The position numbers and the translations under genes are program-made. A DNA stretch of 64,000 nucleotides from Arenicola marina (taxonomy: Eukaryota; Annelida; Polychaeta; Arenicolidae), in contig OZ025252.1 of assembly GCA_964019135.1 (NCBI GenBank), positions 8,944,823 to 9,008,822 of the forward strand. The letters are read 5' to 3'. The notes below the pieces were generated by a model. It saw only the letters and a list, made by a program, of their open reading frames with translations, did no database searches and was not told the DNA's origin. Within the stretch, counting starts at the first letter, position 1. Every line of letters begins with the position of its first letter. Shown in pieces: positions 3,001 through 62,545 of this stretch.

Positions 3001-6000
3001 GACGGGGCAATGGAAGAACGATATCCCTCCCGCAGCCGGTCTGCCGGGAGCAGCGACATAGGACGGGGCAATGGAACAACGATATCCCTCCCGCAGCCGG
3101 TCTGCAGGGAGCAGCGACATAGGACGGGGCAATGGAACAACGATATCCCTCCCGCAGCCGGTCTGCCGGGAGCAGCGACATAGGACGGGGCAATGGAAGA
3201 ACGATATCCCTCCCGCAGCCGGTCTGCAGGGAGCAGCGACATAGGACGGGGCAAGGGAACAACGATATCCCTCCCGCAGCCGGTCTGCAGGGAGCAGCGA
3301 CATAGGACGGGGCAATGGAACAACGATATCCCTCCCGCAGCCGGTCTGCCGGGAGCAGCGACATAGGACGGGGCAATGGAACAACGATATCCCTCCCGCA
3401 GCCGGTCTGCAGGGAGCAGCGACATAGGACGGGGCAATGGAACAACGATATCCCTCCCGCAGCCGGTCTGCAGGGAGCAGCGACATAGGACGGGGCAATG
3501 GAACAACGATATCCCTCCCGCAGCCGGTCTGCAGGGAGCAGCGACATAGGACGGGGCAATGGAACAACGATATCCCTCCCGCAGCCGGTCTGCCGGGAGC
3601 AGCGACATAGGACGGGGCAATGGAACAACGATATCCCTCCCGCAGCCGGTCTGCAGGGAGCAGCGACATAGGACGGGGCAATGGAACAACGATATCCCTC
3701 CCGCAGTCGGTCTGCAGGGAGCAGCGACATAGGACGGGGCAATGGAACAACGATATCTCTCCCGCAGCCGGTCTGCAGGGAGCAGCGACATAGGACGGGG
3801 CAATGGAACAACGATATCCCTCCCGCAGCCGGTCTGCAGGGAGCAGCGACATAGGACGGGGCAATGGAACAACGATATCCCTCCCGCAGCCGGTCTGCAG
3901 GGAGCAGCGACATAGGACGGGGCAATGGAAGAACGATATCCCTCCCGCAGCCGGTCTGCCGGGAGCAGCGACATAGGACGGGGCAATGGAACAACGATAT
4001 CCCTCCCGCAGCCGGTCTGCAGGGAGCAGCGACATAGGACGGGGCAATGGAACAACGATATCCCTCCCGCAGCCGGTCTTCCGGGAGCAGCGACATAGGA
4101 CGGGGCAATGGAACAACGATATCCCTCCCGCAGCCGGTCTGCAGGGAGCAGCGACATAGGACGGGGCAATGGAACAACGATATCCCTCCCGCAGCCGGTC
4201 TGCAGGGAGCAGCGACATAGGACGAGGCAATGGAACAACGATATCCCTCCCGCAGCCGGTCTTCCGGGAGCAGCGACATAGGACGGGGCAATGGAACAAC
4301 GATATCCCTCCCGCAGCCGGTCTGCCGGGAGCAGCGACATAGGACGAGGCAATGGAACAACGATATCCCTCCCGCAGCCGGTCTTCCGGGAGCAGCGACA
4401 TAGGACGGGGCAATGGAACAACGATATCCCTCCCGCAGCCGGTCTGCAGGGAGCAGCGACATAGGACGAGGCAATGGAACAACGATATCCCTCCCGCAGC
4501 CGGTCTGCAGGGAGCAGCGACATAGGACGGGGCAATGGAACAACGATATCCCTCCCGCAGCCGGTCTGCCGGGAGCAGCGACATAGGACGGGGCAATGGA
4601 ACAACGATATCCCTCCCGCAGCCGGTCTGCAGGGAGCAGCGACATAGGACGGGGCAATGGAACAACGATATCCCTCCCGCAGCCGGTCTGCCGGGAGCAG
4701 CGACATAGGACGAGGCAATGGAACAACGATATCCCTCCCGCAGCCGGTCTGCCGGGAGCAGCGACATAGGACGGGGCAATGGAACAACGATATCCCTCCC
4801 GCAGCCGGTCTGCCGGGAGCAGCGACATAGGACGGGGCAATGGAACAACGATATCCCTCCCGCAGCCGGTCTGCCGGGAGCAGCGACATAGGACGGGGCA
4901 ATGGAAGAACGATATCCCTCCCGCAGCCGGTCTGCCGGGAGCAGCGACATAGGACGAGGCAATGGAACAACGATATCCCTCCCGCAGCCGGTCTGCAGGG
5001 AGCAGCGACATAGGACGGGGCAATGGAACAACGATATCCCTCCCGCAGCCGGTCTGCAGGGAGCAGCGACATAGGACGGGGCAATGGAACAACGATATCC
5101 CTCCCGCAGCCGGTCTGCCGGGAGCAGCGACATAGGACGAGGCAATGGAACAACGATATCCCTCCCGCAGCCGGTCTGCCGGGAGCAGCGACATAGGACG
5201 GGGCAATGGAACAACGATATCCCTCCCGCAGCCGGTCTGCCGGGAGCAGCGACATAGGACGGGGCAATGGAACAACGATATCCCTCCCGCAGCCGGTCTG
5301 CAGGGAGCAGCGACATAGGACGGGGCAATGGAACAACGATATCCCTCCCGCAGCCGGTCTGCCGGGAGCAGCGACATAGGACGGGGCAATGGAACAACGA
5401 TATCCCTCCCGCAGCCGGTCTGCAGGGAGCAGCGACATAGGACGGGGCAATGGAACAACGATATCCCTCCCGCAGCCGGTCTGCAGGGAGCAGCGACATA
5501 GGACGGGGCAATGGAACAACGATATCCCTCCCGCAGCCGGTCTGCCGGGAGCAGCGACATAGGACGGGGCAATGGAACAACGATATCCCTCCCGCAGCCG
5601 GTCTGCAGGGAGCAGCGACATAGGACGGGGCAATGGAACAACGATATCCCTCCCGCAGCCGGTCTGCAGGGAGCAGCGACATAGGACGGGGCAATGGAAC
5701 AACGATATCCCTCCCGCAGCCGGTCTGCCGGGAGCAGCGACATAGGACGAGGCAATGGAACAACGATATCCCTCCCGCAGCCGGTCTGCAGGGAGCAGCG
5801 ACATAGGACGGGGCAATGGAACAACGATATCCCTCCCGCAGCCGGTCTGCCGGGAGCAGCGACATAGGACGGGGCAATGGAACAACGATATCCCTCCCGC
5901 AGCCGGTCTTCCGGGAGCAGCGACATAGGACGGGGCAATGGAACAACGATATCCCTCCCGCAGCCGGTCTGCCGGGAGCAGCGACATAGGACGGGGCGAT

Positions 6001-9000
6001 GGAACAACGATATCCCTCCCGCAGCCGGTCTGCCGGGAGCAGCGACATAGGACGGGGCAATGGAACAACGATATCCCTCCCGCAGCCGGTCTGCCGGGAG
6101 CAGCGACATAGGACGGGGCAATGGAACAACGATATCCCTCCCGCAGCCGGTCTGCAGGGAGCAGCGACATAGGACGGGGCAATGGAACAACGATATCCCT
6201 CCCGCAGCCGGTCTGCAGGGAGCAGCGACATAGGACGGGGCAATGGAACAACGATATCCCTCCCGCAGCCGGTCTGCCGGGAGCAGCGACATAGGACGGG
6301 GCAATGGAACAACGATATCCCTCCCGCAGCCGGTCTGCCGGGAGCAGCGACATAGGACGGGGCAATGGAAGAACGATATCCCTCCCGCAGCCGGTCTGCC
6401 GGGAGCAGCGACATAGGACGGGGCAATGGAACAACGATATCCCTCCCGCAGCCGGTCTGCCGGGAGCAGCGACATAGGACGGGGCAATGGAACAACGATA
6501 TCCCTCCCGCAGCCGGTCTGCCGGGAGCAGCGACATAGGACGGGGCAATGGAACAACGATATCCCTCCCGCAGCCGGTCTGCCGGGAGCAGCGACATAGG
6601 ACGGGGCAATGGAACAACGATATCCCTCCCGCAGCCGGTCTGCCGGGAGCAGCGACATAGGACGGGGCAATGGAACAACGATATCCCTCCCGCAGCCGGT
6701 CTGCCGGGAGCAGCGACATAGGACGGGGCAATGGAACAACGATATCCCTCCCGCAGCCGGTCTGCCGGGAGCAGCGACATAGGACGGGGCAATGGAACAA
6801 CGATATCCCTCCCGCAGCCGGTCTGCCGGGAGCAGCGACATAGGACGGGGCAATGGAACAACGATATCCCTCCCGCAGCCGGTCTGCCGGGAGCAGCGAC
6901 ATAGGACGGGGCAATGGAACAACGATATCCCTCCCGCAGCCGGTCTGCCGGGAGCAGCGACATAGGACGGGGCAATGGAACAACGATATCCCTCCCGCAG
7001 CCGGTCTGCCGGGAGCAGCGACATAGGACGGGGCAATGGAACAACGATATCCCTCCCGCAGCCGGTCTGCAGGGAGCAGCGACATAGGACGGGGCAATGG
7101 AACAACGATATCCCTCCCGCAGCCGGTCTGCCGGGAGCAGCGACATAGGACGGGGCAATGGAACAACGATATCCCTCCCGCAGCCGGTCTGCCGGGAGCA
7201 GCGACATAGGACGGGGCAATGGAACAACGATATCCCTCCCGCAGCCGGTCTGCAGGGAGCAGCGACATAGGACGGGGCAATGGAACAACGATATCCCTCC
7301 CGCAGTCGGTCTGCAGGGAGCAGCGACATAGGACGGGGCAATGGAACAACGATATCCCTCCCGCAGCCGGTCTGCAGGGAGCAGCGACATAGGACGGGGC
7401 AATGGAACAACGATATCCCTCCCGCAGCCGGTCTGCCGGGAGCAGCGACATAGGACGGGGCAATGGAACAACGATATCCCTCCCGCAGCCGGTCTGCAGG
7501 GAGCAGCGACATAGGACGGGGCAATGGAACAACGATATCCCTCCCGCAGCCGGTCTGCAGGGAGCAGCGACATAGGACGGGGCAATGGAACAACGATATC
7601 CCTCCCGCAGCCGGTCTGCAGGGAGCAGCGACATAGGACGGGACAATGGAACAACGATATCCCTCCCGAGCGGATTTTGGCGGTAAAAAACGGGGGCGGG
7701 GGAGCTTTTCCGCGGAATCCAAACCTCGTATTGTACCCATTATTTCCCGGGGCGTTGGTGCGGCTGCTCCTCGGCACTCTCCGCACGCTCCAACCCAAGC
7801 GTACTGCATGGGCATCTTTTTGAAGTGCAGTCACTTTATTACCCTCAGAAGGGCGTCTGGAGAACCGGCAAGGTCAGGTTCCAGCTGACCCTCTCAATAA
7901 ACCCACCCTCAATGTTCTGGATCCAAGCAGCTCTGCTGGCCCATTCACTCATGTACTTGGTAGTACGTTCACTCTAGCGCTGGGACGGGGGGCAGCTGCT
8001 GATGTGGGTGGGAGTGTATGCATTGAACTGCTTGTGGACACCTCATCACAGAATCTTCGGTGACGAAATGTGTACAAGCCCTCACTGTGTTTACCATTAG
8101 AGATCGTATACAGTACCTCACATAATCTCTATTGCCACCATATATTCGAGGGCTTCCTCACCACCAGCCTGAAGTATGCTCTCTTTCACTGCCATTCTGT
8201 TGCACAGTTGGGCTTGCGAGATGTAATGTCACATCCAGCAACTGCATGTGCAAACAGCATAACCCCCCCCCCCCACACCCCCTCCAGTGATCTCTGGCCA
8301 ATGGATGTCCCATATCATCAGCTTCTTGCTGCGCTGCTTATTGTCAAACTGCAGATGCAATGTAAATGGCCTTTATGGAAGCATAGCAGAACCAGTAGGT
8401 CAGTGTCTTCTGAAATCAACGTGCTTGGATCTTCAGTCGCACACGCTACGGCTGTCTGGATGAGAATATTGGCGTCACCTTCTGCGTATGCCGTTTTACA
8501 TCTCGTTCGCAGCTTCTGAGACAACATGGCGACAAACCTCTGTTTTTTTTGCTTTCGTTAGTCAGGAAATGCTCGTCCTTGGACATGATAAGCCATTAAA
8601 TTTGACTTGAGCTCGCAGGTCGACGGCCTGTTTATATCCATCAAACACAATGGCATGTTGATAGAAATGCCTCCTGGAGGTAATTTTGGGGCAGGCATGT
8701 CACCCCCTCTGCCTACAGACCAGATAGCATTGATCAGCCTATGCTTGCTTCTCGTGTGAAGTAGGCTGTCCATTCCACGATCGCGGGTCAGTCCTCCTGT
8801 TGTTTTGGTAGTTCTCATGATCTCATGATCTGTGCTATCATCAGGTCTGATGATAGACTTGCCCAGTAGCGATCATTCACGCGAACAACATGGTGCAGTG
8901 TCATGAAGAATCTAAGCACATCAGGATGTTTCAAACATCCTGATGTGCTTCGGCTCACAGACAAACATGATGTTTGTCTGTGAGCCGAGGCATCAGCTGT

Positions 9001-22495: not shown

Positions 22496-24550
22496 CAGAT
22501 TTGGCATTACGTCAAACCTGGAGCGCACACCCGTGTCATCCACACCCTGGAATTCCAGAGGCCTGACGTCGAATCTCCAGTCTTATGACCACCATGTAAC
22601 GGCCGGATGACAGCAGCGGAAAAAGCGGAGCTTGCGTGCCGCCACCGTGCGGGGAGCTTGAATCCACTCATGCAGCCCCCCTCGCCCGCCCCTGACCTCT
22701 GTCGTTGGGGTTCTGGTAGTGAGGGTGCAGGTGCACTGGTTAAAAAAAGTGGAACGGTGAGTCACTTGGCCACAACAAGCCGAGTCTGCCCGGGCGGGGT
22801 TTTTTTCTGGACAGACGACTTCATTGTTGGTTCCCAGCCATGCTTATCGAGGTCACAAACACGAACGGGCGCCTATCGTGTTTGATCAGTAACGTCGTGC
22901 AAGGCGCCTTCTGTCCCACGCTGCGGACGTGGTTATTGATCCACTTGAGGGGGCCCGGGAATTCCCCCGGATGTTGCCCGTTGTGCACCGAACCTGTCAG
23001 TCGTACTTGACTTCTGTAAGTCCATCTTCGACGTATATTTTAGTCATAAGTTTCGCGTTATATTACTACGCCGAGTGTTGGTGGGCGGGTGGGGGGGGGG
23101 GGGACGAATCATGAGCCCTTCTGCCCTTCCCCGTTTTGAGTGCATTGACGCGGAGCTAGGTCAGGCCCCGCCCCCCTCTTTTAGGGCCGAAATTTATACC
23201 ATTTAACATATGAAAACCGAAACCGGCCCCCCTATCCAGCATATCTGGATCCGCCCCTGTCACCTCTAAACCCGCTCGAAAGGGGTATTTTTTCCATTGA
23301 CGCATTCTGTGTCGCAGTTCTATGCAGACCCGTTCGGTTTATCCTTGTTTCTCGGCAAGCCCGCTCGGTTTATTCCTTATTCCTGGCAAATTTACCGCTC
23401 TATGAACGCAATTTGCAGGGGCGTTTACAGGAATTATTGAAATGGAGGTGTGGGCGGGGGGGTGGGGGGCACACTAAATTCTTCCACATGTGCATGCTTC
23501 CTCCACCCATCCCCATGCTGTGATCAATCGACGCCTTACAAGGCGCCTGGGCGGGCTTCGCGCAGGTTGTTTTCTTTCCACATACACGGGAAGCTAAAGC
23601 TGAATCAAATTTCCTTGTAAAGTTTTCCGTTGGACAGGCGGGGATTTGGGGATTGTCCAGGCGCCCTACGTCAGTGCGATGTGTACTGTCAGGTCGGCTG
23701 TCAGGCGCGACAGGAGGGGGTGTCATGTACGTATCTTACACCATACGGTCTTTGTTATCGACGGCGTGCGTTGTACCTATTACGGCTGAGAACTTGTCAG
23801 GCCAATGGAATGTTATAGCAAGGGAGTGGCGCCGCCACAAAACAAAGCCCCCCCCCCCCCCACTCCCACATGCACACCTTACTGCATCATGGCATCATTC
23901 CATTGTCGCTCCAACAACCAATCTTGAAATGGCTGCGAACATGCACTTGCGCCATCCACGAGTGATTCGACAAGACGCGAAGATACTGTTTAAAGTTATA
24001 CTTAAGCGCATCCGTTTTTTTGTATTAATTAAGTGGGCATTACCATGATGTATACCTTTACTGACATCAAAATCACCACCAAGGTGAAGGCTTCGAATAG
24101 CACAATACTTGTCAATGTAGATTCCCTTTCGAAAGCTCCTGGCGTAAACTGTCTTAACTAATGTTTAAAATCTTTGCTTTTCTGCAACCTACATTCTGCA
24201 TTTTTTACTCCCAGCGCCATTTTTGAAGCATAACACTGGCAAAATATACACTAACATGTGAAACATAAGCCATTGACGAGTTCAGTTTGCGTACGCCGCC
24301 ATGCTTGTTTACTACATGGAAAAGAGGTGTGCCATTCAAAACTTCACCTCGGTGGTGGTTTTGGCGTCAGCTGGATAGATCTATACCTGTTTTGCCCATG
24401 CCAATGACACTATGAGATCATAAGGTGTGTCATCATGATAGGAGCTGTAAGTGATTGCTGATTTCAAGGGCTTTCATCCAGCTTGCATTCATTAGAGATT
24501 GTATTCGGCGTCGTCTGTGTGTGTTTTTGTGCAGGCGCACATGTTGCATT
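22496..24550. other. Intergenic, nothing recognised apart from homopolymer runs
   Basis: Contains G-runs near 23090-23103 and C-runs near 23850-23861. A fragment reading ATATCTGGATCCGCC near 23240 resembles one end of the short inverted-repeat element seen complete at 50547-50770. No exon pairs were found. Confidence 0.45.
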
Positions 24551-24888
24551 TTGCCCTATCCCATCGGATTGTAGAGATGTGCTCTGCCCCAACCCACTCT
24601 GCAATGATGTGTCCTATCCCCTCCCATTAGAACGATGTGCTCTGCCCCCTCCCATTGAAACGATGTGCCCTACCCTCTCCCATTGGAACGATGTGCCCTG
24701 CACCCTCCCATTGGAACGGTGTACCCTACCCCATCCTATTGGAACGATATGCCCTACCTCCTCCCATTAGAACGATGTGCCCTACCCCCTCCCATTGGAA
24801 CGATGTGCCCTAATCCCTCCCATATGAACGATGTGCCCTACCCCCGCCCCTTGGAACGATGTGCCCTGCCCCTTTTCATTGGCATATG
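24551..24888. repeat. 28-bp minisatellite, array 1, about 12 units
   Basis: Units contain CCCTACCCCCTCCCATTGGA followed by ACGATGTG. The same repeat forms a second array at 33797-34425. The left edge is degenerate. Confidence 0.93.
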
Positions 24889-33183: not shown

Positions 33184-36100
33184 TCATCGCGTGACTTTGG
33201 GTTTCTTCTCCGGAGGCGGCTTGACGCTGGAGTTCACTTGTGACGTCACTGATGATGCCCGGTCGTCTGGTTTCTCCGTCTTTACTTCCTGTTTCACGAC
33301 TGCTTCTGGTTTCTCTACTTTGACGACTTCTTCCGCTGAAACACAGCAATGTTGCCATCATGGTAAGTACAAAGACATCTGAAGCCGTCCTTATTGCGTC
33401 TCCTGGCATTTGTTTTCCTTTAAATACATTCTTAACAAGAGGAAACTTTCGTCGCAATAGTTTATATATATCTTTTCCTCTCTAGCAAATAAATGTAACA
33501 ACTATTTTCACTTGCTCATCAAACTGTCGTGACTTGCATTTCCGCAGACGACACGTTTGCTCACCGGGTTTCTCCGGGGGGACGCCGGCTTGGTATTTTG
33601 GCGGGAATTTCTTGGCCAGCTCGGCAAGGAGGATGTCGACCCTCTGCCTCTGGAACAGCGAACTGGGCTCCTCCTTCTGCTTCTTCTTGTCTTCGCCGGC
33701 TGCTTTCTCTGCAAAATCATGTTCATCGAAGTTAGAAGGTTGATGTAAAAGTAGTACCGCCTCATCTTCGTTGAGGCGGCTTAATTACTGTTTGCTACCG
33801 CCTCCCATTGAAACGATGTCCCCTACCCCCTCCCATTAGCACGATATGCCCTACCCCCTCCCATTAGCACGATGTGCCCTACCCCCTCCCATTGGAACGA
33901 TGTGCCCTACCCCCTAACATTAGCACGATGTGCCCTACCCCCTCCCATTGGAACGATGTCCCCTACCCCCTGCCATTAGAACGATGTGCCCTACCCCCTC
34001 CCATTGGAACGATGTGCCCTACCCCCTAACATTAGCACGATGTGCCCTACCCCCTCCCATTGGAACGATGTCCCCTACCCCCTCCCATTGGAACGATGTG
34101 TCCTACCCTCTCCCATTGGAACGATGTCCCCTACCCCCTCCCATTGGAACGATGTGCCCTACCCACTCCCATTGGAACGATGTCCCCTGCCCCCTCCCAT
34201 TGGAACGATATCCCCTACATCCTCCCATTAGAACGATATGCCCTACCCCCTCCCATTGGAACAATGTCCCCTACCCCCTCCCATTGGAATGATGTCCCCT
34301 ACCCCTCCCATTGGAACGATGTGCCCTACCGCCTCCCATTGGAACGATGTCCCCTACCCTCTCCCATTGAAACGATGTCCCCTATCCCCTCCCATTAGCA
34401 CGATGTCCCCTACCCCCTCCCATTGGTGACACCCCCCCCCACCCCCGGGGAAACAATGACACCCATCTCACGGTCATAACGGTCATCGGGACGAGTCAGC
34501 CCACCATTAGCAGCGCCGGTAAGCTACGGCACACACAACAACACTCCAGTCCAGTGTCCGCGTCATGACCGGGCTCTGATGGATACCACTATCCTTCGCC
34601 TGCCATGCATCATTGGACCTTGATCTTGTGACGCCTGCCATCCTTTGCCTCCAGCCACCCTGTCGTTAACTGTCGCGACGGCCACGGGTTTAGGCAAACA
34701 GCGAATTTCAGTACATCATATGGACCGCCATTAACATACCCACGTTATGGTAAGGAAAGCAGCAAATACGCTTTACCTGTTTTGTCCTTGCCCTTGAAAT
34801 CCCAGTAGTAACCCTTAGACGGGTGGTATTGAGAGAAACTTCGAGCTGAAAAGAAAATGAGATCTTAAATTTACACTGTGCCAAGAGGTATATATTATAT
34901 TGGTTTGCATTGGTTAAAGCTACACAAATAGTTCTTTTTGCCAAAATCCTATCAGGGTCTAAAAATGCTACATTATATGGTCTGATCATTGTAAGGTTCA
35001 TCTCTTGTCGTCACTTAAAGTCACTACATGTAGTCTGCACAGCATCCCTAACACTGTGCAATATAACAGTAATCACACCTTTCTGTTAAATGTGACTCTT
35101 AATCTTTCATTGTAGCATATATGCAGAAATATTGATAATTGGCGGGAAATAGCTGCACATAACTTTAAGAAATGACGAACTGGAACCTACAGACTCGAGC
35201 GTCTTACACACATAATATATTCTGTCTGTAATACGGTACCTTCTTCGAATGCCGTCTGTAACGCGGTGACGGTATTCAGCTGAAAGGGTAGAGAAGAACG
35301 TTGGCCGTTAGCCTTTCTTCTAAGCACATTGACTATATATGCCCCGAAATATTTGGCCCTTTAGGAACTTAGGGGTCATACTCCAAAAAGACTCACACTT
35401 GAGGACGGAGCAGAGGTCAGGGGCTTGGTACACCACCCTTAATGCCATCATACAGTGACTCACCAGTCTAGAGTTGAGGACGGAGCAGAGGTCAAGGGCT
35501 TGGTACACCACCCTTAATGCCATCATACAGTGACTCACCAGTCTAGAGTTGAGGACGGAGCAGAGGTCAAGGGCTTGGTACACCACCCTTAATGCCATCA
35601 TACAGTGACTCACCAGTCTAGAGCTGAGGACGGAGCAGAGGTCAAGGGCTTGGTACACCACCCTTAATGCCATCATACAGTGACTCACCAGTCTAGAGTT
35701 GAGGACGGAGCAGAGGTCAAGGGCTTGGTACACCACCCTTAATGCCATCATACAGTGACTCACCAGTCTAGAGTTGAGGACGGAGCAGAGGTCAAGGGCT
35801 TGGTACACCACCCTTAATGCCATCATACAGTGACTCACCAGTCTAGAGCTGAGGACGGAGCAGAGGTCAAGGGCTTGGTACACCACCCTTACTGCCATCA
35901 TACAGTGACTCACCAGTCTAGAGTTGAGGACGGAGCAGAGGTCAAGGGCTTGGTACACCACCCTTACTGCCATCATACAGTGACTCACCAGTCTAGAGCT
36001 GAGGACGGAGCAGAGGTCAAGGGCTTGGTACACCACCCTTACTGCCATCATACAGTGATTCACCAGTCTAGAGTTGAGGACGGAGCAGAGGTCAAGGGCT

Positions 36101-37888
36101 TGGTACACCACCCTTAATGCCATCATACAGTGACTCACCAGTCTAGAGCTGAGGACGGAGCAGAGGTCAGGGGCTTGGTACACCACCCTTAATGCCATCA
36201 TACAGTGACTCACCAGTCTAGAGCTGAGGACGGAGCAGAGGTCAAGGGCTTGGTACACCACCCTTAATGCCATCATACAGTGACTCACCAGTCTAGAGCT
36301 GAGGACGGAGCAGAGGTCAGGGGCTTGGTACACCACCCTTAATGCCATCATACAGTGACTCACCAGTCTAGAGCTGAGGACGGAGCAGAGGTCAAGGGCT
36401 CGGTACACCACCCTTACTGCCATCATACAGTGACTCACCAGTCTAGAGCTGAGGACGGAGCAGAGGTCAGGGGCTTGGTACACCACCCTTAATGCCATCA
36501 TACAGTGACTCACCAGTCTAGAGTTGAGGACGGAGCAGAGGTCAGGGGCTCGGTACACCTCCCCTTACTGCCATCATACAGTGACTCACCAGTCTAGAGC
36601 TGAGGACGGAGCAGAGGTCAGGGGCTTGGTACACCACCCTTACTGCCATCATACAGTGACTCACCAGTCTGGAGTTGAGGACGGAGCAGAGGTCAGGGGC
36701 TTGGTACACCACCCCTGCTATGATGTAGAAATCGGTCTGTGGAGTTGCTGTAAAGTATAACGCACATAATTGTACAAATGTTTAAATGGTATTCTATTAA
36801 ACAAAGTACAGAAGAGCCAAATACAACAAGTATCACCATAAAGCAGGAAGTGACTGTCTCAATAATGTGCCACCAACCTCTGCCTCAGTGGTATCTTACC
36901 AGAATGACTCATCGTGGTACCAGTTACGTTACAAGTCAACTTGGGTGACAAAAGCAGTGAATCGAGTTAAAATATATATCTCTACCTTGAGATGGAGAAT
37001 GTCTATATTGTTTCCTGATCACATATAATATAGGTTCCTGCACGTGAAGAAGTATATATTCAAGGCCAGTCATGTTCCTGAAAGTTGAAAAAAAAACAAG
37101 TGCCACAATTTAGACAGACATTCTGGTAAAAATACAGTGCCAACTTGTGTTTCAAACTGCTATCAACCAAGACAAGTCAAACAGAAACATATCTATTCAG
37201 CAATAAAGACGTTAACACAACAGTCGATAGTAACATCTTGTCTTGCGGATTCGCATTCCAGATTCACGTCATAGGTTATGAGCCCGCAGTTTACATTTAC
37301 ATCATATGTTGTGAGCTCGCATTCTACATTTACGTCATAAGTGGAGCTCGCATTCCATATTTACATCATATGTTGAGCTCGCATTCCATATTTACATCAT
37401 ATGTTGTGAGCTAGCATTCTATACTTACATCATATGTTGTGAGCTCTCATTCCATATTTACAACATATGTTGTGAGCTCGCATTCCATATTTACATCATA
37501 TGTTGTGAGCTCGCATTCCATATTTACATCATATGTTGTGAGCTCGCATTCCATATTTACGTCATATGTTGTGAGGTCGCATTCCATATTTACATCATAT
37601 GTTGTGAGCTCGCATTCTATACTTACGTCATATGTTGTGAGCTCGCATTCCATATTTACATCATATGTTGTGAGCTCGCATTCTATACTTACGTCATATG
37701 TTGTGAGCTCGCATTCTATACTTACGTCATTTGTTCAGGATTCACTCGTTGCATTTTGACGATTTCATTATTACAACTTCTGTCATAAAAGATGTTGCTC
37801 TGGGAGAAGTAGTCCATGATGTTACTTGGGTTGAGGATGGGAATCCAACTGCTGTCATGCCACGATATGGACAAGGCATTGCTAATTC
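33184..37888 (-). CDS. MED6: Mediator complex subunit 6 (7 exons; initiator exon not located)
   Basis: MED6 is a head-module subunit of Mediator that helps connect activators to RNA polymerase II. Exons in transcript order: 37888-37726, 37077-36986, 36747-36665, 35279-35240, 34845-34777, 33708-33565 and 33335-33184 (TGA). All junctions keep phase. Diagnostic matches to human MED6 (from memory): [93 protein letters not shown] and [20 protein letters not shown], followed by a Lys/Glu-rich tail ending KPKVTR. The first exon here opens with two bases of a split codon, so a tiny upstream exon encoding only a few residues must exist; I could not place it. Introns carry 33-bp (37.3-37.7 kb), 75-bp (35.4-36.7 kb) and 28-bp (33.8-34.4 kb) minisatellites; the first two include the 5' splice site. 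Confidence 0.95.
33797..34425. repeat. 28-bp minisatellite, array 2, inside a MED6 intron, about 22 units
   Basis: Same unit as the array at 24551-24888. Each unit carries CCCATTGGAACG (an inverted CCAAT box) and C-runs that become GGGAGGGGGTAGGG in the MED6 transcript. It lies in the intron between exons 34845-34777 and 33708-33565. The rest of that intron (34430-34776) has only a C-run near 34431-34446. Confidence 0.95.
35390..36715 (-). repeat. 75-bp minisatellite copying the 3' end and 5' splice site of a MED6 exon, about 18 units
   Basis: On the MED6 sense strand each unit contains exon sequence GTGTACCAAGCCC, then TGACCTCTGCTCCGTCCTCA, ending AGACTG, followed by GTGAGTCACTGTATGATGGC. 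The genuine exon (36747-36665) is the first unit, complete with its own acceptor; about 17 further copies follow in the intron, each with the same AGACTG|GTGAGT junction. The unit is 25 codons long and stop-free in the exon's frame. Most internal copies read QALDL where the genuine exon has QAPDL. Confidence 0.95.
37300..37735 (-). repeat. 33-bp minisatellite starting at a MED6 5' splice site, about 13 units
   Basis: On the sense strand the exon ends GAACAAATGAC|GTAAGTATAG. The following units repeat AACATATGACGTAAGTATAG plus AATGCGAGCTCAC, or a TGTAAATATGG variant. The repeat therefore begins with the last bases of the exon and contains the donor. The unit is 11 codons long. Confidence 0.93.
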
Positions 37889-39716: not shown

Positions 39717-41855
39717 GTTTTTTTGTTGCCGGCTTTAGCTGGTTCATTATCAATTAATACTCATTTGTCTCATTTGTTGGTCTGTAAGTGTAATAGTCGC
39801 AAACGAATTCTTATAACGCGACAATTGCGCATTATTGATTTCCGCGTAGACAGACGATAAAAACCAATGTATTCCCCCCCATAGCATGGATCCACCTCCA
39901 GTCCCGCATCACACACATCCACGACAGACGCCCTCTCCCTCACGCACACTCACCGAGGAAAGGACCCCTCAGCCCCCCACACGGGACTGAGCTCCCCCAT
40001 CACACACACCTAGGAGGGACCCCACACCTCACCCACCCAGGACGGACCCCCCACCCCCCTCATACACACCCGTTAAGACCTGTCTCCCCTATCCGTATCA
40101 ATTTAGGATCTTTTGAAAAGCATGCCTGTGATTGACCCCTCACAACAAAATTGGGATAAAATAGGGCCACTGGTGCCAGAAAAGTAAGAGAAAAAGTAGG
40201 GAAAGCTAGGGACTCCAGGAACAAATGTAGGGAATTCTGATGAAAACATCTACGCCTTTTCTGCATATTTACTTACCGAGATGACTTTTACCCTTACCAT
40301 ATCACTTATGACTTTGAGCCCAGGCCAGATGACATGCATTCCAATACCACATAGTACGTATTATACAGCATAATTCCTACTATAGAACCTACTCTGTGAC
40401 AGTACCCAATATCATTGTCAAGGTCATTGAGCATCTATTGGCGTGATCCGGATGTACCCGAATTCCTGCAAACCATGGGTGCTTTACATGTCATCTGGTC
40501 AAATCTTAGAAATTTCAAAACTAAGCAGTGACAAAGTAGGAATGTAAGGATAGCGTCGAGTGGTTTATGTGGGGAATGTACGACGGCAAAAACTTTAACG
40601 TACTTAAAATTGTTATAACAAGGCATTAAATTAGCTCATGATTTGGGCGGTTAAATTTCCCTGTTTGGACACAGGAAATTGACTATTGTATCAATTGCAC
40701 TGCCCGACTAATACGTGAGTGAGCATTATGGAAACAACGGTCCGTCATTGTGAAGCCCCTGGGGGGACGGTGGGGGTGGGAAGGCGTGGAGGAAATGGAC
40801 CTTTCGGAAGTCTTGTTTTCTAAATCACCACAAAAGGGTCAAGTCAATAATCTAACTTTCCGGAAAACATCGCCCCCTGAAAAGCGATATGAGGGATCTA
40901 ACACTTCTGCTTTAAAATAAATCATCCATATCTGCACCGTCACACAGATGTGACAGCTGCTGTAGCAATGACATGACCATGTCAGACGGCCCCCCATTAG
41001 GCCTGTTTTCCGATACCTTCTTCCAGATAATGAACACTTAAGACAAAGGCGTGACGTCACACAATTTTTTAAACTACTTTACCATACTCCACTTAATTCT
41101 TTAACCATGATCACCATAGATTGAACTACGGCAGGTCATTGATCATGTCACGTGTATTCAATCGCGTGACTATGCAATGCTTTGCACCGTTAAGGCCTAT
41201 TTCAATCGACCACATGATGTCATGATAGCAAGTGTATATATTCCAGGTAAAAGTTCAACATTCTAAGAAAACAGGGTGGTAAGAGATGATATAACAGTTT
41301 GAAGAGATGTTAGGAGGTGTGATTAGCCAATACAAAGATTCAGATTTAACTGAGGCAGGTGACGATAATAAGGACTTTTCTTTCCAACACATATATATTT
41401 ATTCCTATACATATACATAACTGATCTAATTTTACTGCAGCATGCGAGAGATAGCCAAAAAAATATCTTTGGTTTGTCACTCCTGAATGTTTATAAAAAA
41501 ATACACTATCCATATATTAAATTTTACTTATTGCTCACAAACGGGTCAGAGTGCTGTTGACTGTGTACTTGTCTCTACCTTGCTAATCAATGACTGATGA
41601 TTTTAGAGTTGACAATCATGACCAGGGCAAAACTAGTGAGGTCGATAATAAGATACATTTGTGAATAATCCAAACTAATTTGGCTGCCTTTGTGTATTCT
41701 GCATTTAAATCGAACAGAGTTTTTGAACAGTAAGGTATGACCGATTGTATACATGTTTTCATGTTGTACTGTGGGCTTGAGGTACAATAAAGTATATTAC
41801 ATAATTATATCATATTTTACACACACAAAACAATGTTTTGCCAGTGGGCAATATT
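39717..41855. other. No feature recognised
   Basis: AT-rich sequence with C-rich low-complexity stretches near 39890-40060. A CRE-like TGACGTCA occurs near 41051. The MED6 initiator exon should lie somewhere above 37.9 kb, but I found no convincing candidate here. Confidence 0.4.
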
Positions 41856-47194: not shown

Positions 47195-50100
47195 ATGCGA
47201 CGAAACAAAATGAAATTACTTCTGCTGATTTCGAAGATTATTTTGATTGGTAAGTGTACATTTTTCTCTATTTTGAACAATGTTCTTGCCTGATCGCAAT
47301 GGACCGTGTGAAACCTATAACACAGAAACCATTGTGGGATGGGTGGGGGGGGGGGGGGTGGAGGGGGCAAAGCTGAACAATAATTCGCCCTAAAAGCCCC
47401 TAAAACGGACCTAAAAGAACGACCGTCCGGACCGCTCCTACATTTTAAACGTCACTCCCTCCCCAGTGGCGGATATATAGTTGGGGTTGGGTTGATTGGG
47501 GGTGTATGGTGGGTGCGTGGCCAGGGAGCATGTGGCTTCTGTATCCCCGTCCCGGCAACGCCCCCCCACCCCCCACCGCACCCCAGGGTAGCAGGCTGTT
47601 TTAACGTAATTTGTTTTAATCGCCTTTTGTAACCTGCTTTCTCCTTTTGAGGTTACGCGCACATATAGCTGTGCGGTACTCCAATAATCCTGATAGACCT
47701 ACACACTAGGTACGTTATTTTTGATTTAGGGTTTAGCCAAGACTACATTCGTGCACGAAATGAGAATCCTATACACATTTCCACAATAATTTGGTTTATT
47801 TCAGGGTTTTTGATATTATGTGTTATAAGCTACCTTATAAAACATATAGCCATTTCGTATAAGCATTTCCACCCTCGGACAAAGTTTGAAATACTTTAGC
47901 ATTATTTCCGCGAGGGAGTGATTTTCCCGCTCATCCCTCCTATTCAATGTCCCCCCGTGTTCCTCCGTGCGTCAAGCACTATTACTACTATTTAATGAGA
48001 AATGCTAAGACTTAAAATTCAATGAACCAATCACTTCATTGTAGGCGTCCAAGCCGGATATAGACCTATATATTTGCCATGTGTGGCAAAATATTGGTTA
48101 GACAAATATCGGGCGCGGAAGGAACTTAGTTCGCTGTGCCGCCGCCTCGTGTCGCACTGGTGTTACCGCAGCAGCGCGGAGTGACGTACGCGCAGGCAGA
48201 CGGCGCCCTATTACAGTTGACTGAACCCGGAACCTACGGGCGGAGCAGCATGTTGGGGATTTTATTCGCCGGTGGTTATATATCCCCGGCGCTCGATCAG
48301 TAATTGACATTAATAATGGGTTTTCCAAGGTAAACCTACGTTTATCTAAAAGCATTGAAGAGGTTTACGACTTCTTGAGCAGATTGAATATTGACTTGCC
48401 TGTAGTGAGGCCTATTGGAGTGTGATGGGGTTTTACCAACAATTGATAGTTAAGGCTATTCGAACATTTGTTTTTCCGCCAACATCATGCCACTTTGTGA
48501 CACTTTAAGGCCTGATTGATGCAAACACTTTTATCGCCTAGTTATCACTAAAATGTATAGCCTGCATAAAGCGTGCTTGAGCAGCATTCCTAAAATGGTG
48601 CAAGAAATCAATGAACTACACTACTACTTAAATCTGTGACGTAGTTCACATAACTTGAACTTTACGGTCAGCTGTAAGGTGATCAATACTTTTTCTGGTC
48701 TGCAAGGCAATTGTGCAGTTCGTTAAATGTGGTTGGTTGGTTATTCAGGACGCTTTAACCACTTTTGGTCGTATCGCGTCAATGGGAGACGGAAGGGAGA
48801 GTGGAGCCATGTCCCCGGGGGTAACCCTCTACTCTTTACGAAGAAAGGCATGGGATCTTTATCCTGCGAACACACAGAAATGGCCACAGCAGGGCTCGAA
48901 CCACTGACCCACGTGCCGTTAGGCTCTCAGGTGACCAGAGCACTCAATGCGAGCGCTCTAGCCCACTGAGCTGTCGCGCCGGCCCCTTTGTTAAATGTGA
49001 ATACATGTACGAATATTCATTTTAGTGTATTATTCAGATGTTTTTGAATTGGCGGGAGACAATTTCGGTGAACGTAAGCTATATATTGCGAAAGACGATG
49101 GATTTGCAAAAATTGGATTTCCTTCGCGGTATTTGCGCTTATGACTGAATAACACTATATATAAGACCTACAGAGCTTACCGCAGTCGTCGCATCGATAA
49201 CCTGTCGTTTGGTCTTGTTATGGCACACAGTTTTCCGTTTCGTGTCTGTGTCCCCGATAACTCTCGAAGACCTACACTACCATTGTCAAACTACGCAAAA
49301 CGATTTCCAAGGATAAAACAGGCAACATCCGTCAACGGTCAGCGTAACGATCACGTCATACGTCAAAGACAAATTTTCCGTCATAGCGCCTTCAATATTT
49401 GAGCTATAGACACGGAATTAGTGCCAAGATAATCAATTCCTCAAATTCTTTCAATTTGTTCTTGTGCACTGACGTACAGCAACCACCCCGGCCTTCTCCT
49501 TCCCCGCCAGCAGTATACACGAATGGTATGCGCTGCGCTACGCCGAATATTAGAAAGGTCAGACAGAACTCAAGCCATATTCCACGACGCATAGCCGTAG
49601 CCACCAACCATTTTGCCCCCTCGTGCGTGTTACATACTTATAAGCTGTCTTGCCATCCGCCGGAGGTGAGCAGTAATAATGGGAAACATAACCCTGAAAA
49701 CATGTCGGCTGCAGATGTTCCCTCCATTTTGAGCGAAGACCCCTGCTTACAGAAAAAATTCTACTGTAACTTAGATGTGACCCCCCTCCCCCACCCCCCC
49801 CCCCCCCCCCCCACCTGCACCTCCCTCCGGTCGTCCGTTTTTCGAAGGACTCACTCACCGTCCGACTTCTACCTCCCCGAAACGAACAATGCTTTCTAAA
49901 TCAAAGAGGTTGGAACCCTGGCACCTGCACCATATTGGGCATGTTTCGTCGTCGCGGGAGGTTCCTTGGCCCATGCAGTTTAGTCTTAATGCGGATAAAA
50001 GTGGCATACAACTCAACTGTCATTTCCAAATCCGATATCCACCCTGATCGCCTCCGCCCCTATCCCAGGTGTAACTCAGAAAGTACCGTTGACAGACAAA

Positions 50101-53100
50101 TAGAAGAACACCACCCCACCCCCGCACACACGAAATGTACACTGACAAGTACGAGGTGTTGGCAGATTAAAATAAATGGATTTTAATTTCAGCCTCTCAT
50201 CTGGTGGCAGGATGCTCCGGGCAAATGACACAGCCCTGCTCAGCGATCAATCACATACCGTGCTACCAAAGCAAAGAAAACGACATCTACACCTGTTTTG
50301 ACCGCCAGGCCCATTTCTGCTGCAATGGCACGATTCACCCGCATGACGGCATCGCGGGATGCTGCTCAGGTAACCAGTCTCAAAGAGATATCTATTCAAA
50401 CTCCAGAAGTACAGTGACAAGAATGTCACCGGCGGCGGATATAACATTGTCAGGAAGTCAAATAGATGTTAACGGTATGCGTAGTTCTTCCGGTGAGTTA
50501 TTCGGAGGAATTGCACCCCCCTCCCCCCACCCAACCCTTGACTTTACAGTGGCGGATCCAGAAATTTACGACGGGGGTGGGAGGGGCTCAATTTATTAAA
50601 GTACTATCCAGTGAGTGACTTGCGACCGGGGGGAGGGAGAGGGGGGGCTAGTGAGGTTGTGCACAATGAATATTGACTGTGCGCACATGCATTTTTTTGC
50701 CTATGTTTGACCCAAAGCGGGGGGGGGGGTGGCGGCACGTGCCCCATGTGCTACCCCGGATCCGCCACTGCTTTACCTAATGAATCACTAATAGTGTGAT
50801 CTCTACTTCCCGAACCACTAATAGCGTGACCTCTACCTACCGAACCGCCAATCGTGTGACCTCTACCTGCCGACCCCCAATCGTGCGCCCTCTACCTGCC
50901 AAACCACCCATCGTGTGACCTCTACCTGCCGAACCGCCAATCGTGTGACCTCTACCTGCCGAACCACCAATCGTGTGACCTCTACCTGCCGAACCGCCAA
51001 TCGTGTGACCTCTACCTGCCAAACCACCCATCGTGTGACCTCTACATGCCGAACCGCCAATCGTGTGACCTCTACATGCCGAACCGCCAATCGTGTGACC
51101 TCTATCTGCCGAACCACTAATCGTGTGACCTTTACCTGCCGAACCACCAATCGTGTGACCTCTACCTGCCGAACCGCCAATCGCGTGAACTCTACCTACC
51201 GAACCACCCATCGTGTGACCTCTACATCCCGAACCACCAATCGTGTGACCTCTACATGCCGAACCGCCAATCGTGTGACCTCTATCTCCCGAACCACCAA
51301 TCGTGTGACCTCTACCTGCCGAACCACCCACCGTGTGACCTCTATCTCCTGAACCACCCATCGTGTGACCTCGCGTCAAACGAAGCTGCTAACTGGGCTG
51401 GTACCGCTCATGGCGATCCACTGCTTTCAGGTGCGCGACAGGTGTACAACACCCTGAGTGAGATCTGCTGTGGCAGGGCTATCCGTGGCAAGGAGAGTGT
51501 GACGACTGAATGCTGTAACGACACGGTGTACAACAGCCGTTACAAGAAGTGTTGTAGGGGAAGGCTTCATGAAAAACCTGGTACGCTCAGTTCAAACTTA
51601 TTTAAAGAGTTGTTTCCCGCCAAAATCATGCCGGGATAAACCTTTCCTATATCTATAGCCTGATGCTATATCTATAGCCTAATTAGTGCCAAAATTATCT
51701 ATTGTCAATACAATTCATTGCCTAGTAGTGTCGGCATAGTATCCCTAAAGCTGTGCCATAAAACAGCGGGCTGCACATAAATCTGTGACGTAGTACACGC
51801 CACTTTCAACTAACAATCAGCTGTCAGGCAAAACGTTTTCTGTCATATATCATGTTTTTAATTGTGCGAGAAATATTTGTATGCATAAGTTTAAATTGCA
51901 ATGGCCGATTTGTAATGTTTTTAATAACCGAAAAACTATGTGATTCATATACTTCTTGATATATTTGTGTTCTGTGTTATTTCTGCCAATTCTGAATCTT
52001 TACCGGTAATTTCAGCCCGTCAGGCCCTAACGTAGAATGTATATACATATGACTGTATATATCGACGTTCTAAATGTTCTAAATGTACTAAATGTTCTCT
52101 CCTCTATTTGTCTTAGCCGCTGTGGCCATTATGAATGCCAGGTGTTGCGGAGACGAAGTCTATGACAGGACGGCCAGTCAGTGCTGTAGGGTGAAGGCTG
52201 GTGGACGGGAGGTCCAGGCCAAGGGGTCGTGTGCCCGCTTCCGCAGGACCTACCAACCCCAACACGTACAGTGTGGCGCAGAAACCTTCAACCCCACCAG
52301 ACAGGTCTGCTGCACCAGCGGCGCCAACAAGTACACCATCGACAACGACGGCCACGTGGCCTGCTGCTCGGGTCACCCCCAAGGTATCACAGGCACAGTC
52401 CACTCCATGGGATGTAGATATGCATACAGTATATATTTTATATACAATACACAATATGGTCACACATAGTGGAGGGATATAGTACAGTACCTGTAAAAGG
52501 AACTGTTTCTTATCAATCTCCTGGAGATATTTATCAGAAGAAATGTTTGCGTTATGCGCAATAATAACATTTATCCTTCTAATTCCATCTAATCCAATAA
52601 TTAGTTTGGCGTAAAATTTGCTGCATAAGCAGCCTAACTTGATTTATTTACAGGGAATGAAATGGTCCGCAAGAGATTGGCCATAGCAGTGGTTCTACGG
52701 TGGCGTATTTAAAGAAACGCAGTTTAGCCGACTACGGGGCTTAGTCGGCTAAAGTTACCATGTAAATGATGGGCGATTTTAGCCGGCTAAAGCCCGTAGC
52801 CTGCTAAACTATGTGCGTGAAATATGCCAATGTATGTTTGCGCCCCATGCAATAAACGAGGCACATATATACTTATAGTTGATGTTAAGCGACTCACGTA
52901 TATGAAGGGTCGACGCTTACAAGTGATCTAATGAGGTGCGCCCCCCTTGATGTTATCGGCTGATGCCCATCTTACTATGTTCAAAATAGGTGGTTATAAT
53001 ACAATATCACAAGGACGCTCGTGCAGTGCTCATGGAGGTTTAATTATATAGGAATATGATTATACACCTATATCTCTTACAGGAGAAAAAAGTAATTGGG

Positions 53101-56100
53101 AAGGACAATTTGTGGATATATCGGGCAGATTTATGAAAAAGAATATTATATTAGATAATATTTACAGACCTCCACGAGAATTGAACGAAAAGTACAGAAT
53201 ATTCACTGAACAGTTCAGCCAGTATATAAGGTCGATTGATAAACTGAGCAAGGAGGTGGTCATTGCTGGGGATTTCAATATTGATCTCTTAAACATTAAT
53301 GACAAAGCTGTCATAAGTGAATTCTTCGAGACCATCATCACGCTTAGTTTTTTTCCCAACATAACACTTCCAACTCGGTTATCAAAAAGAAAAGAGCCTC
53401 TTTGATAGATAACTTTTACTGCAAACTTTCGTATAATACATTGCAAACCACTGCTGGAGTAATTGTAAGATTGATCTCTGACCATTTACCTATTTTTGTT
53501 TGTATATGCACCTTACAAAGTTGCGCCAAAATGCCTAAATTTGTTAAGATTAAGAAGTCTCACCCAGATGGTATGATAAACCTGAGAAATGAGCTGTCAT
53601 CGATTGACATTCTCGATAAATTGTTTAAGCGCCTAAATTTACTCAAATTAGAAGACATACATCATTTACATATATTGAAATTTTATCACAAATTAACCAA
53701 TGATAGCTTACCTTGCTATTTTAATAAACTGTCCATGGTCCAAAATGACGAAGTGCATTCTCATTATACTCGCAACCGTAACCATGTTCACTCCGTTAGA
53801 GCCCGGCATGAATTTGTTACTAAATGTATACAATACAGTCTGGTTGAAATCATCAATACTGAACCAAGCCAAATCAAATCAAATTGTGATACTATGTTAC
53901 CGGTACGAGTTGTTTGTTTCAAGGGTACATCAACAAGACGGGTGGGCTGTGCTGTAATGGGGAGCCACATGTGGGGGTGAGTCCCTCCCAGGAGTGCTGT
54001 GGCACCTCCGTCATCGACTCGGAGACGCAGCGCTGTTGCTGGAGTCCCACCGACCCGCTGGGTCCCCAGCCCTACGACAGCCAACAGCACCAGTGCTGTG
54101 CAGGTTAGTTCGCCTATTTTGTTACTACTTTTAGTTATTCTTCAAGGTTAATTTTTCTGATGAAAAACTTGTTATATCTTTCAGGTGTAAATCAATACAT
54201 TTCAGCTCCGTTATATTGTACAAACACTCTGGCGTGCTGCGTCATCCATACATCGGGCTGACTAAGACGGTAAGCCTATCTGAAAACTGGCTGATATGCA
54301 GTGAAATAAGTCTTTAATGACTTAGATCCAGTGGAATCATTTGCGACCAGTAATGCAGTGCAGTTGCTGACGCTTCCTGTTCTAACAGGTCGCGTGGTGG
54401 ACCGTGGTCTCCCATGCTGCTTCAACGAGACCTTCAACCCGGCAAAGAAGCTGTGCTGCAACAATAGCGTCTACGCACTGTCCCGTTACAGGTAGGAGTG
54501 TACATACCGGTACATTGCACGCGCGGGGCGGGCGCGGGCAGAGAATTTGTGCCCGCAGGTCTGTAACACTAGTAGGGCCTATGTCCGGCCGTATGGTATG
54601 TGCCAGAATGTCCTAGTGTGCGGTAGACCTATATATTTGTTGTATTTTGTGGCGTGTAGCCTAACGATATGTAGTACTTGTTGATATATACCACATATAG
54701 TGATGTTTGATAAATGGAGTGGCCCTCACGACAGTAAACCGTAGATTAGCCGCCCAATCACCCGCCATACACCTGTCCCTTTAACTCGAGCTACGTACCG
54801 TACCCACCCACTCACCGGCCATACACCTGTCCCTTTAACTCGAGCTACGTACCCTACCCACCAACTCACCGGCCATCCACCTGTCCCTAAAACTCGAGCT
54901 ACGTGTCCTACCCACCCACTCACCGGCCATGCACCTGTCCTTTTAACTCGAGCTACGTACCCTACCCACCAACTCACCGGCCATGCACCTGTCCCTAAAA
55001 CTCGAGCTACGTATCCTACCCACCCACTCACCGGCCATGCACCTGTCCTTTTAACTCGAGCTACGTACCCTACCCACCCACTCACCGGCCATGCACCTGT
55101 CCTTTTAACTCGAGCTACGAACCCTACCCACCCACTCCCCGGCCATTCACCTGTCCTTTTAACTCGAGCTACGAACCCAACCCACCCACTCACCGGCCAT
55201 ACACCTGTCCTTATAACTCGAGCTGCGTACCCTACCCACCCACCCACCGGCCATACACCTGTCCTTTTAACTCGAGCTACGTACCCTACCCACCCACTCA
55301 CCGGCCATACACCTGTCCTTTTAACTCGAGCTACGTACCCTACCCACCCACTCACCGGCCATACACCTGTCCTTTTAACTCGAGCTGCGTACCCTACCCA
55401 CCCACTCACCGGCCATACACCTGTCCTTATAACTCGAGCTGCGTACCCTACCCACCCACTCACCGGCCATACACCTGTCCTTTTAACTCGAGCTACGTAC
55501 CCTACCCACCCACTCACCGGCCATACACCTGTCCTTTTAACTCGAGCTACGTACCCTACCCACCCACTCACCCGCCATACACCTGTCCTTTGAACTCGAG
55601 CTGCGTACCCTACCCACCCACTCACCGGCCATACACTTGTTCTTTTTGCGGCACTTTTGACAGCGGATGTAAGTACGGCATACCGATTGAGCGCACGCGC
55701 CGCGAGAACCGCCCTCGCTCTCGTGGCTGTCTCACCCCCGACACCAGTCACCTTGGCAACAGCTGCTGCGACGGACGCCCCTTCTTTACCTCCCGGCAGA
55801 CGTGTTGCAACGGGACGCTGTTTAACCAGTCGGGCTTGAGCTGCTGCTGCGATCAAGCCTACCGCCCTTGGTATAGCGTTTGTCGTAAGGCCGACTGCAC
55901 CCTGGTAAGCTCGCCGCTGAAAAGACCCACCAAAAACATGGGCTGCCCGCTTTGTGGACTAACAACAGGTAGATCCTCGAAATCTAACAACGGGAACTGG
56001 ACTCAAGTACTGGCCAGCGGTGACGTCATAGGTAGGCGGCTGATTTTTACGTATTTTAATGTTAGTGTACAAGACGTATGACCCCCCCCCCTCCCACCCA

Positions 56101-62329: not shown

Positions 62330-62545
62330 GTGCCACTCGCGATCTCACGAGAATACGCGAGGTCATCGCCCGCGCATTCTCTCGTTCTGGCCCCGCGCAA
62401 GGTCAACGCTGAAGTATGGTGGCATATATGTGCCACTCGCGTTCTCGCCTAGCACAACCTGAGGAGAGATTGCGAGAGTCGAAAACGCGAGACTGCGCGA
62501 GGCGAGAAGGCGCGATGCGAGAACACGAGATTAATCTAAAGCGCG
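62330..62545. repeat. Cluster of GCGAGA / TCTCGC motifs
   Basis: CGCGAG, GCGAGA, TCTCG and CTCGCG recur more than a dozen times in about 215 bases, in both orientations. GTGCCACTCGCG(A/T)TCTC is present twice. It is a low-complexity or regulatory-like cluster. The surrounding 61553-63270 shows nothing else. Confidence 0.55.

Follow-up and report, generated by a model that had tools for sequence, protein, structure and literature searches.

A MED6 exon end and its 5' splice site form a 75-bp tandem array in Arenicola marina

The end of exon 4 (E4) of the Mediator subunit gene MED6, together with its 5' splice site, is repeated in tandem about 18 times on the minus strand of a 64,000-base stretch of the Arenicola marina genome (contig OZ025252.1), which was analyzed whole and is referred to below as the window. 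It is highly likely that this array is a minisatellite of the kind described in amphioxus as a mirage, with the exon-proximal donor being used and the other copies leaving with an ordinary intron.

Results

A MED6 gene on the minus strand

We built a model from six minus-strand exons (E2-E7, the part of the gene between exon 1 and the last exon or exons), taking the first donor of the array as the end of E4; once joined, they encode 196 residues in a single open frame (Table 1). All six exons have AG and GT borders. The joined translation matched the Pfam Med6 domain with an E-value of 1.7e-43, and its residues 3-196 matched PDB chain 7emf_F, a Mediator subunit 6 that we take to be the human protein, with an E-value of 4.5e-78. 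These matches, together with the open frame across the six exons, bear out the identification of the gene as MED6 in a preliminary description of the sequence, as well as the E4 exon and the junction AGACTG/GTGAGT placed there. E4 ends in phase 0, after L112 of the joined protein and opposite the V119/L120 boundary of 7emf_F, and is flanked by introns of 238 nt upstream and 1385 nt downstream. Seven PDB sequences matched, and none of the three whose alignments were inspected had an insertion at the E4/E5 junction.

Table 1. Features of the MED6 locus, in window coordinates and in the order of transcription
Feature	Position	Strand	Basis
MED6 exon E2	37726-37888	-	exon joining
33-bp array, 15 donor-like sites, the first being the E2 donor	37251-37735	-	TRF, donor scan
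MED6 exon E3	36986-37077	-	exon joining
MED6 exon E4, 83 nt; its 3' end is the first array copy	36665-36747	-	exon joining, PDB alignment
75-bp minisatellite, 17 copies and a truncated 18th	35400-36714	-	TRF, in-register alignment
GT of donor 1, predicted authentic 5' splice site	36663-36664	-	copy alignment, U1 pairing, splice-site matrix
GT of donor 2, sole downstream frame-keeping donor (+25 aa)	36588-36589	-	frame reading
Join of copies 2 and 3, frame-breaking 1-bp insertion, GTAAGGGGAG against GTAAGGGTGG or TTAAGGGTGG elsewhere	36559-36568	-	copy alignment
MED6 exon E5, common acceptor	35240-35279	-	exon joining, acceptor scoring
MED6 exon E6	34777-34845	-	exon joining
28-bp array in intron 34776-33709, touching no exon	33795-34426		TRF and exon map
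MED6 exon E7	33565-33708	-	exon joining

The 75-bp array at the E4 donor

TRF reported an array with a period of 75, 17.5 copies and 97% matches. The unit consists of the E4 exon end, the 5' splice site and ~25-29 intron bases, and copy 1 is the real exon end. The anchor GGTGTACC was found 18 times, from 36710 to 35434, which, together with the TRF result, confirms the ~18 tandem copies of exon end and splice site that had been reported. An identical donor, CTG/GTGAGTC, is present in 16 of the 18 copies, the 9-mer being the same in all 16. Donor 9 instead reads GTGAATC, while donor 18, which follows a shortened unit, reads AGT/GTGAGTC; the earlier count of about 18 equal donors was therefore nearly right, needing amendment for these two copies. 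Use of donors 1, 2, 3 and 4 would give exons of 83, 158, 234 and 309 nt, respectively, with the length increasing onward. Scores based on the splice-site matrices and on the U1 5' end are valid for ranking only; ranked in this way, the E4 donor has both the strongest U1 pairing (-9.2 kcal/mol) and the best matrix score (10.5) of the 6 donors found in MED6.

The heptamer TGAGTCA, which we take to be the AP-1 consensus, lies inside the donor unit GTGAGTCA. It occurs 23 times in the window, compared to 8.3 occurrences expected for the whole window, and 16 of the 23 fall in the array (35456-36663). This enrichment is probably a by-product of the donor.

Reading frame through the copies

Donors are spaced 75 bases apart across the full copies, with the exception of donors 2 and 3, which are 76 apart; the unit preceding copy 3 ends in GGGGA and not in GGGT. 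Reading through from E4, donor 2 would contribute 25 stop-free residues in frame, whereas for every one of donors 3-18 (16 of 16) codon 69, which lies in copy 3, is TGA. The unit had been characterized as a multiple of three that is stop-free in the frame of the exon. This holds as far as copy 2 and fails beyond it, given the 76-bp spacing and the TGA in copy 3. The proposal that distal donors could lengthen MED6 by n x 25 residues fares worse: only n=1 (donor 2) is open, while n=2 to 16 and donor 18 run into the TGA, and the frame break between copies 2 and 3 rules out a ladder of such isoforms in this allele. Because a T-to-A difference accompanies the 1-bp insertion, the latter is not a plain homopolymer miscount. 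A sequencing error at this position is still conceivable.

Variation among the copies

Among the 17 full copies, 6 of the 71 aligned columns were variable; the other 4 unit positions vary only where copy 2 ends. Five of the 6 variable columns change a residue in the frame of the exon and 1, a TCC found only in the exon copy, is silent; 1 of the 6, variable in copy 9, lies within the donor. Every single-base change open to the 75-bp unit, when counted, gives 166 non-synonymous, 51 synonymous and 8 stop changes, and set against this expectation the observed 5:1 ratio offers no hint of constraint on coding. The six variable columns, the only ones available for this judgement, do not support purifying selection acting on the copies as protein. 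The variation looks like neutral drift, with six columns being too few to exclude weak coding constraint.

A Pro-to-Leu change is indeed shared by most internal copies, as had been noted, being present in 11 of the 16 (copies 2-17). The Pro codon is retained in internal copies 2, 3, 4, 6 and 8 and in truncated copy 18. The sole column that separates the exon copy from the others is the silent one, which reads TCC in the exon copy and TCT in 16 of 16 internal copies. The suggestion that the internal copies have homogenized apart from the exon is only partly right, being borne out by that one column, with several internal copies still keeping Pro. Edge copies that escape homogenization are a trait of amphioxus mirages; in the present array, the C and A of copy 1 at columns 14 and 35 recur in copy 18 and likewise in copy 3. 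The 40 bases after the truncated copy did not significantly resemble the missing part of the unit, their score being equalled in 154 of 2000 shuffles and in 141 of 2000 random window pieces.

Further arrays in MED6

A second donor-spanning array, which the preliminary description did not list, begins on the 5' splice site of E2. The E2 donor ATGAC/GTAAGTATAGAATGCGAGCTCACAAC recurs at 33-bp steps, two of which are 31. GTAAGT is kept in 4 of the 15 sites, the rest reading GTAAAT or GTGAAT. On the splice-site matrix the first donor scored 7.24, two later donors scored the same, the donor at 37428 scored 8.05, and the remainder ranged from 2.24 to 4.24. Use of any of the downstream donors would lead to a stop at codon 55 (14 of 14).

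A third array, with a 28-bp unit, lies within an intron. A near-identical 28-bp unit is present at 24576-24872, ~9 kb from the MED6 copy, and the two flank an 8-kb array of 34-bp units. We estimated, for this gene only, the probability that a random seed unit straddles one of the E2-E6 donors as ~0.18 (75-bp), 0.08 (33-bp) and 0.07 (28-bp). By a post hoc hand calculation from this crude placement estimate, the location of 2 of the 3 MED6 arrays on donors is mildly above chance (~0.03), which we regard as a weak hint.

Array-rich surroundings

In the window, 22 arrays, merged from 49 TRF rows (with 23329-23389, 40003-40055, 49780-49828, 52067-52098 and 62466-62523 omitted), cover 31,080 of 64,000 bases, or 48.6%. 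With such coverage, an array on an exon end is no rare accident in a genome of this kind. We infer that selection would tend to remove arrays lying wholly within exons and to tolerate arrays that begin with the authentic exon end as their first copy.

Several other features of the window were recorded. A 61-bp array at 774-7668 (113 copies, 98% matches) is open in all three minus-strand frames over ~7 kb. A 54-bp array (18 codons) at 54753-55646 has no stop codon from 54999 onward in one plus-strand frame, and this frame enters a stretch resembling galaxin (Galaxin_repeat in Pfam, 2.1e-4, below cutoff); the array is possibly a coding repeat or another boundary array. Galaxin-like repeats are also present at 51121-52469, where Pfam gave 2.3e-9 and, below its cutoff, 1.9e-5; a 30-bp array at 50782-51372 lies directly upstream of them. 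A retrotransposon endonuclease-like fragment was observed at 53052-53402 (Exo_endo_phos_2, E 7.4e-4, below the Pfam cutoff). Searches of the viral and prokaryote collections viral_contigs and genome_contigs returned 0 matches to the 75-bp repeat core, and viral_contigs held no relatives of MED6.

Discussion

Choice among identical donors

Since 16 of the donors are equal, context must decide which of them is used. According to extracts of Carranza et al. (PMC9225289), exon-definition minigenes bearing two identical strong donors used the upstream one exclusively, near-equal donors showed a stronger upstream preference when a short upstream intron was combined with a long downstream one, and shorter exons were favored. 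The introns of 238 and 1385 nt around E4, which may correspond to the short and long classes of that work, taken together with the fact that donor 1 yields the shortest exon, lead us to predict use of donor 1. Three observations count against this prediction. The same extracts (PMC9225289) report that the downstream donor wins ~60% of events before strength matching. The intron from donor 17 would measure only 184 nt, and intron definition would favor a late donor. Finally, the 33-bp array does not have its top-scoring donor in first place (7.24 on the splice-site matrix, compared to 8.05 at 37428). RNA structure gave no indication of hiding the distal donors: the folds of 97 of 100 shuffled sequences were as good as or better than that of the 308-nt stretch analyzed (z +1.67).

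We propose that the array arose by tandem duplication of a short segment straddling the boundary between exon 4 and intron 4 of MED6, and that it may have expanded via slippage or unequal exchange. The spliceosome would take donor 1, which combines an 83-nt exon, a strong donor and a long downstream intron; the remaining 17 copies would be removed within the 1385-nt intron, and the gene would still work. Misuse of donors 3-18 would produce a premature stop and misuse of donor 2 a 25-residue insertion, so transcripts of either type are expected to be rare. The 16 identical donors in a core Mediator gene represent a living-genome version of the minigene question posed in the extracts of Carranza et al. 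(PMC9225289): exon definition predicts donor 1, intron definition predicts a late donor, and nearly every wrong choice is marked by a stop. The array was previously called a natural test of splice-site choice, which is a fair description.

Alternative explanations

The downstream donors might be used regularly, lengthening MED6 in frame as in human IFI6. Donor 2, a perfect copy of donor 1 whose use would add 25 stop-free residues, is consistent with this, and two downstream units of IFI6 reportedly serve as donors to give three mRNAs (PMC4526556, in extract). However, donors 3-18 give a stop, and the insertion would sit in a conserved block where none of the three alignments inspected, from seven matching PDB sequences, has one, making such isoforms improbable. 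The stops might themselves have a function, if distal donors were used at a low rate that depends on copy number and the stop-containing mRNA tuned the level of MED6. A premature stop does follow from 16 of the 17 alternative donors of the 75-bp array and from 14 of 14 in the 33-bp array. Nevertheless, stops are the default result of random frame breaks, use of the distal donors is purely hypothetical, and the donor is changed in most 33-bp copies (11 of 15 without GTAAGT); we consider this explanation very unlikely. We likewise doubt strongly that the two donor arrays of MED6 jointly act as a copy-number-dependent splicing rheostat, with the +25-residue protein as a minor form. If they did, the number of competing donors would set the share of stop-containing MED6 transcripts, and a core Mediator subunit would be tuned by a fast-mutating minisatellite, differently from one individual to another or even from cell to cell.

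Another alternative is that the units are nascent introns, each 65 nt long from GT to the next CTCAG, with 10-nt exons between them. A model for intron gain from mirages is proposed in extracts of PMC3087553. In nine copies of the array (36599-35623) the CCTCAA of the exon is replaced by CCTCAG, which on the splice-site matrix scores 7.25 compared to 6.41 for the acceptor of E4 itself, and 8 of the 16 GTGAGTCAC donors are followed at a distance of 65 nt by an AG of this kind, with the next donor 10 nt beyond it. In contrast, the common E5 acceptor at 35279 is stronger (8.73 on the same matrix), a 10-nt exon is very small, and the one after donor 1 would read CTC TAG, a stop. Nascent intron gain is exceedingly improbable on these grounds; the GT-AG units are raw material for intron gain, no more. 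The array could also be an artefact of assembly, given that tandem arrays are difficult to assemble and that PGBD5 repeat numbers differed between two assemblies (PMC3902484, in extract). In the present case, interspersed single-base variants distinguish the copies and the window contains many further arrays; moreover, re-sequencing of lancelet PGBD5 argues strongly against assembly error according to the authors of PMC3902484, as extracted. An artefact is, in our judgement, highly unlikely.

Comparison with known systems

The mirage-type minisatellite that we favor for MED6 has several published relatives. The minisatellite of human IFI6 (6-16; Turri 1995) provides multiple splice donors, as stated in extracts of PMC4526556, and the MED6 units similarly hold donors. 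The two differ in that downstream donors are reported there (PMC4526556, in extract) to be used in IFI6, giving three mRNAs, whereas in MED6 only donor 2 keeps the frame and its use is hypothetical; frame extension of the IFI6 type by downstream donors thus failed in MED6 for all but donor 2. A published intron-exon boundary duplication resembles MED6 in its tandem crossing of the boundary, although there one duplication made a new intron, while MED6 has many copies and no sign of a new intron. Human TERT VNTR6-1 was rejected as a precedent for donor repeats, INS1 being in intron 4 and the VNTR in intron 6 in extracts of PMC11830802, and PMC5389562, in extract, concerns duplicated 3' splice sites, not donors. 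No paper joining MED6 with a minisatellite was found in the literature searched.

Boundary-spanning minisatellites have already been published for amphioxus. Extracts of PMC3087553 describe mirages as minisatellite-like tandem copies across an exon-intron boundary, many of which keep splice signals; their units measure 10-160 bp and are unstable in length, and RT-PCR data for Adh3 and globin suggest no interference with regular splicing. In extracts of PMC3902484, Adh and troponin C are said to carry mirages without aberrant mRNAs, and PGBD5 repeats of 60 and 108 bp overlap exons 3 and 4; one annotation made the PGBD5 repeats an exon (+57 residues), which the authors left out. As in the mirages covered by these extracts (Adh3, troponin C, BflGb6/BflGb9 and PGBD5), the tandem units of both MED6 donor arrays span an exon-intron boundary, splice signals are kept (16 of 18 identical donors in the 75-bp array, 4 of 15 GTAAGT in the 33-bp array), and the unit lengths of 75 and 33 bp fall within the published 10-160 bp. 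Unlike the mirages seen in the same extracts, which have 6 and 3 copies in two BflGb6 haplotypes and 2-7 copies in PGBD5, the array at E4 reaches ~18. MED6 bears a pair of arrays, each on a different 5' splice site, and PGBD5, as extracted, likewise bears two, at exons 3 and 4. The MED6 array is a further case of these boundary-spanning minisatellites, in another gene.
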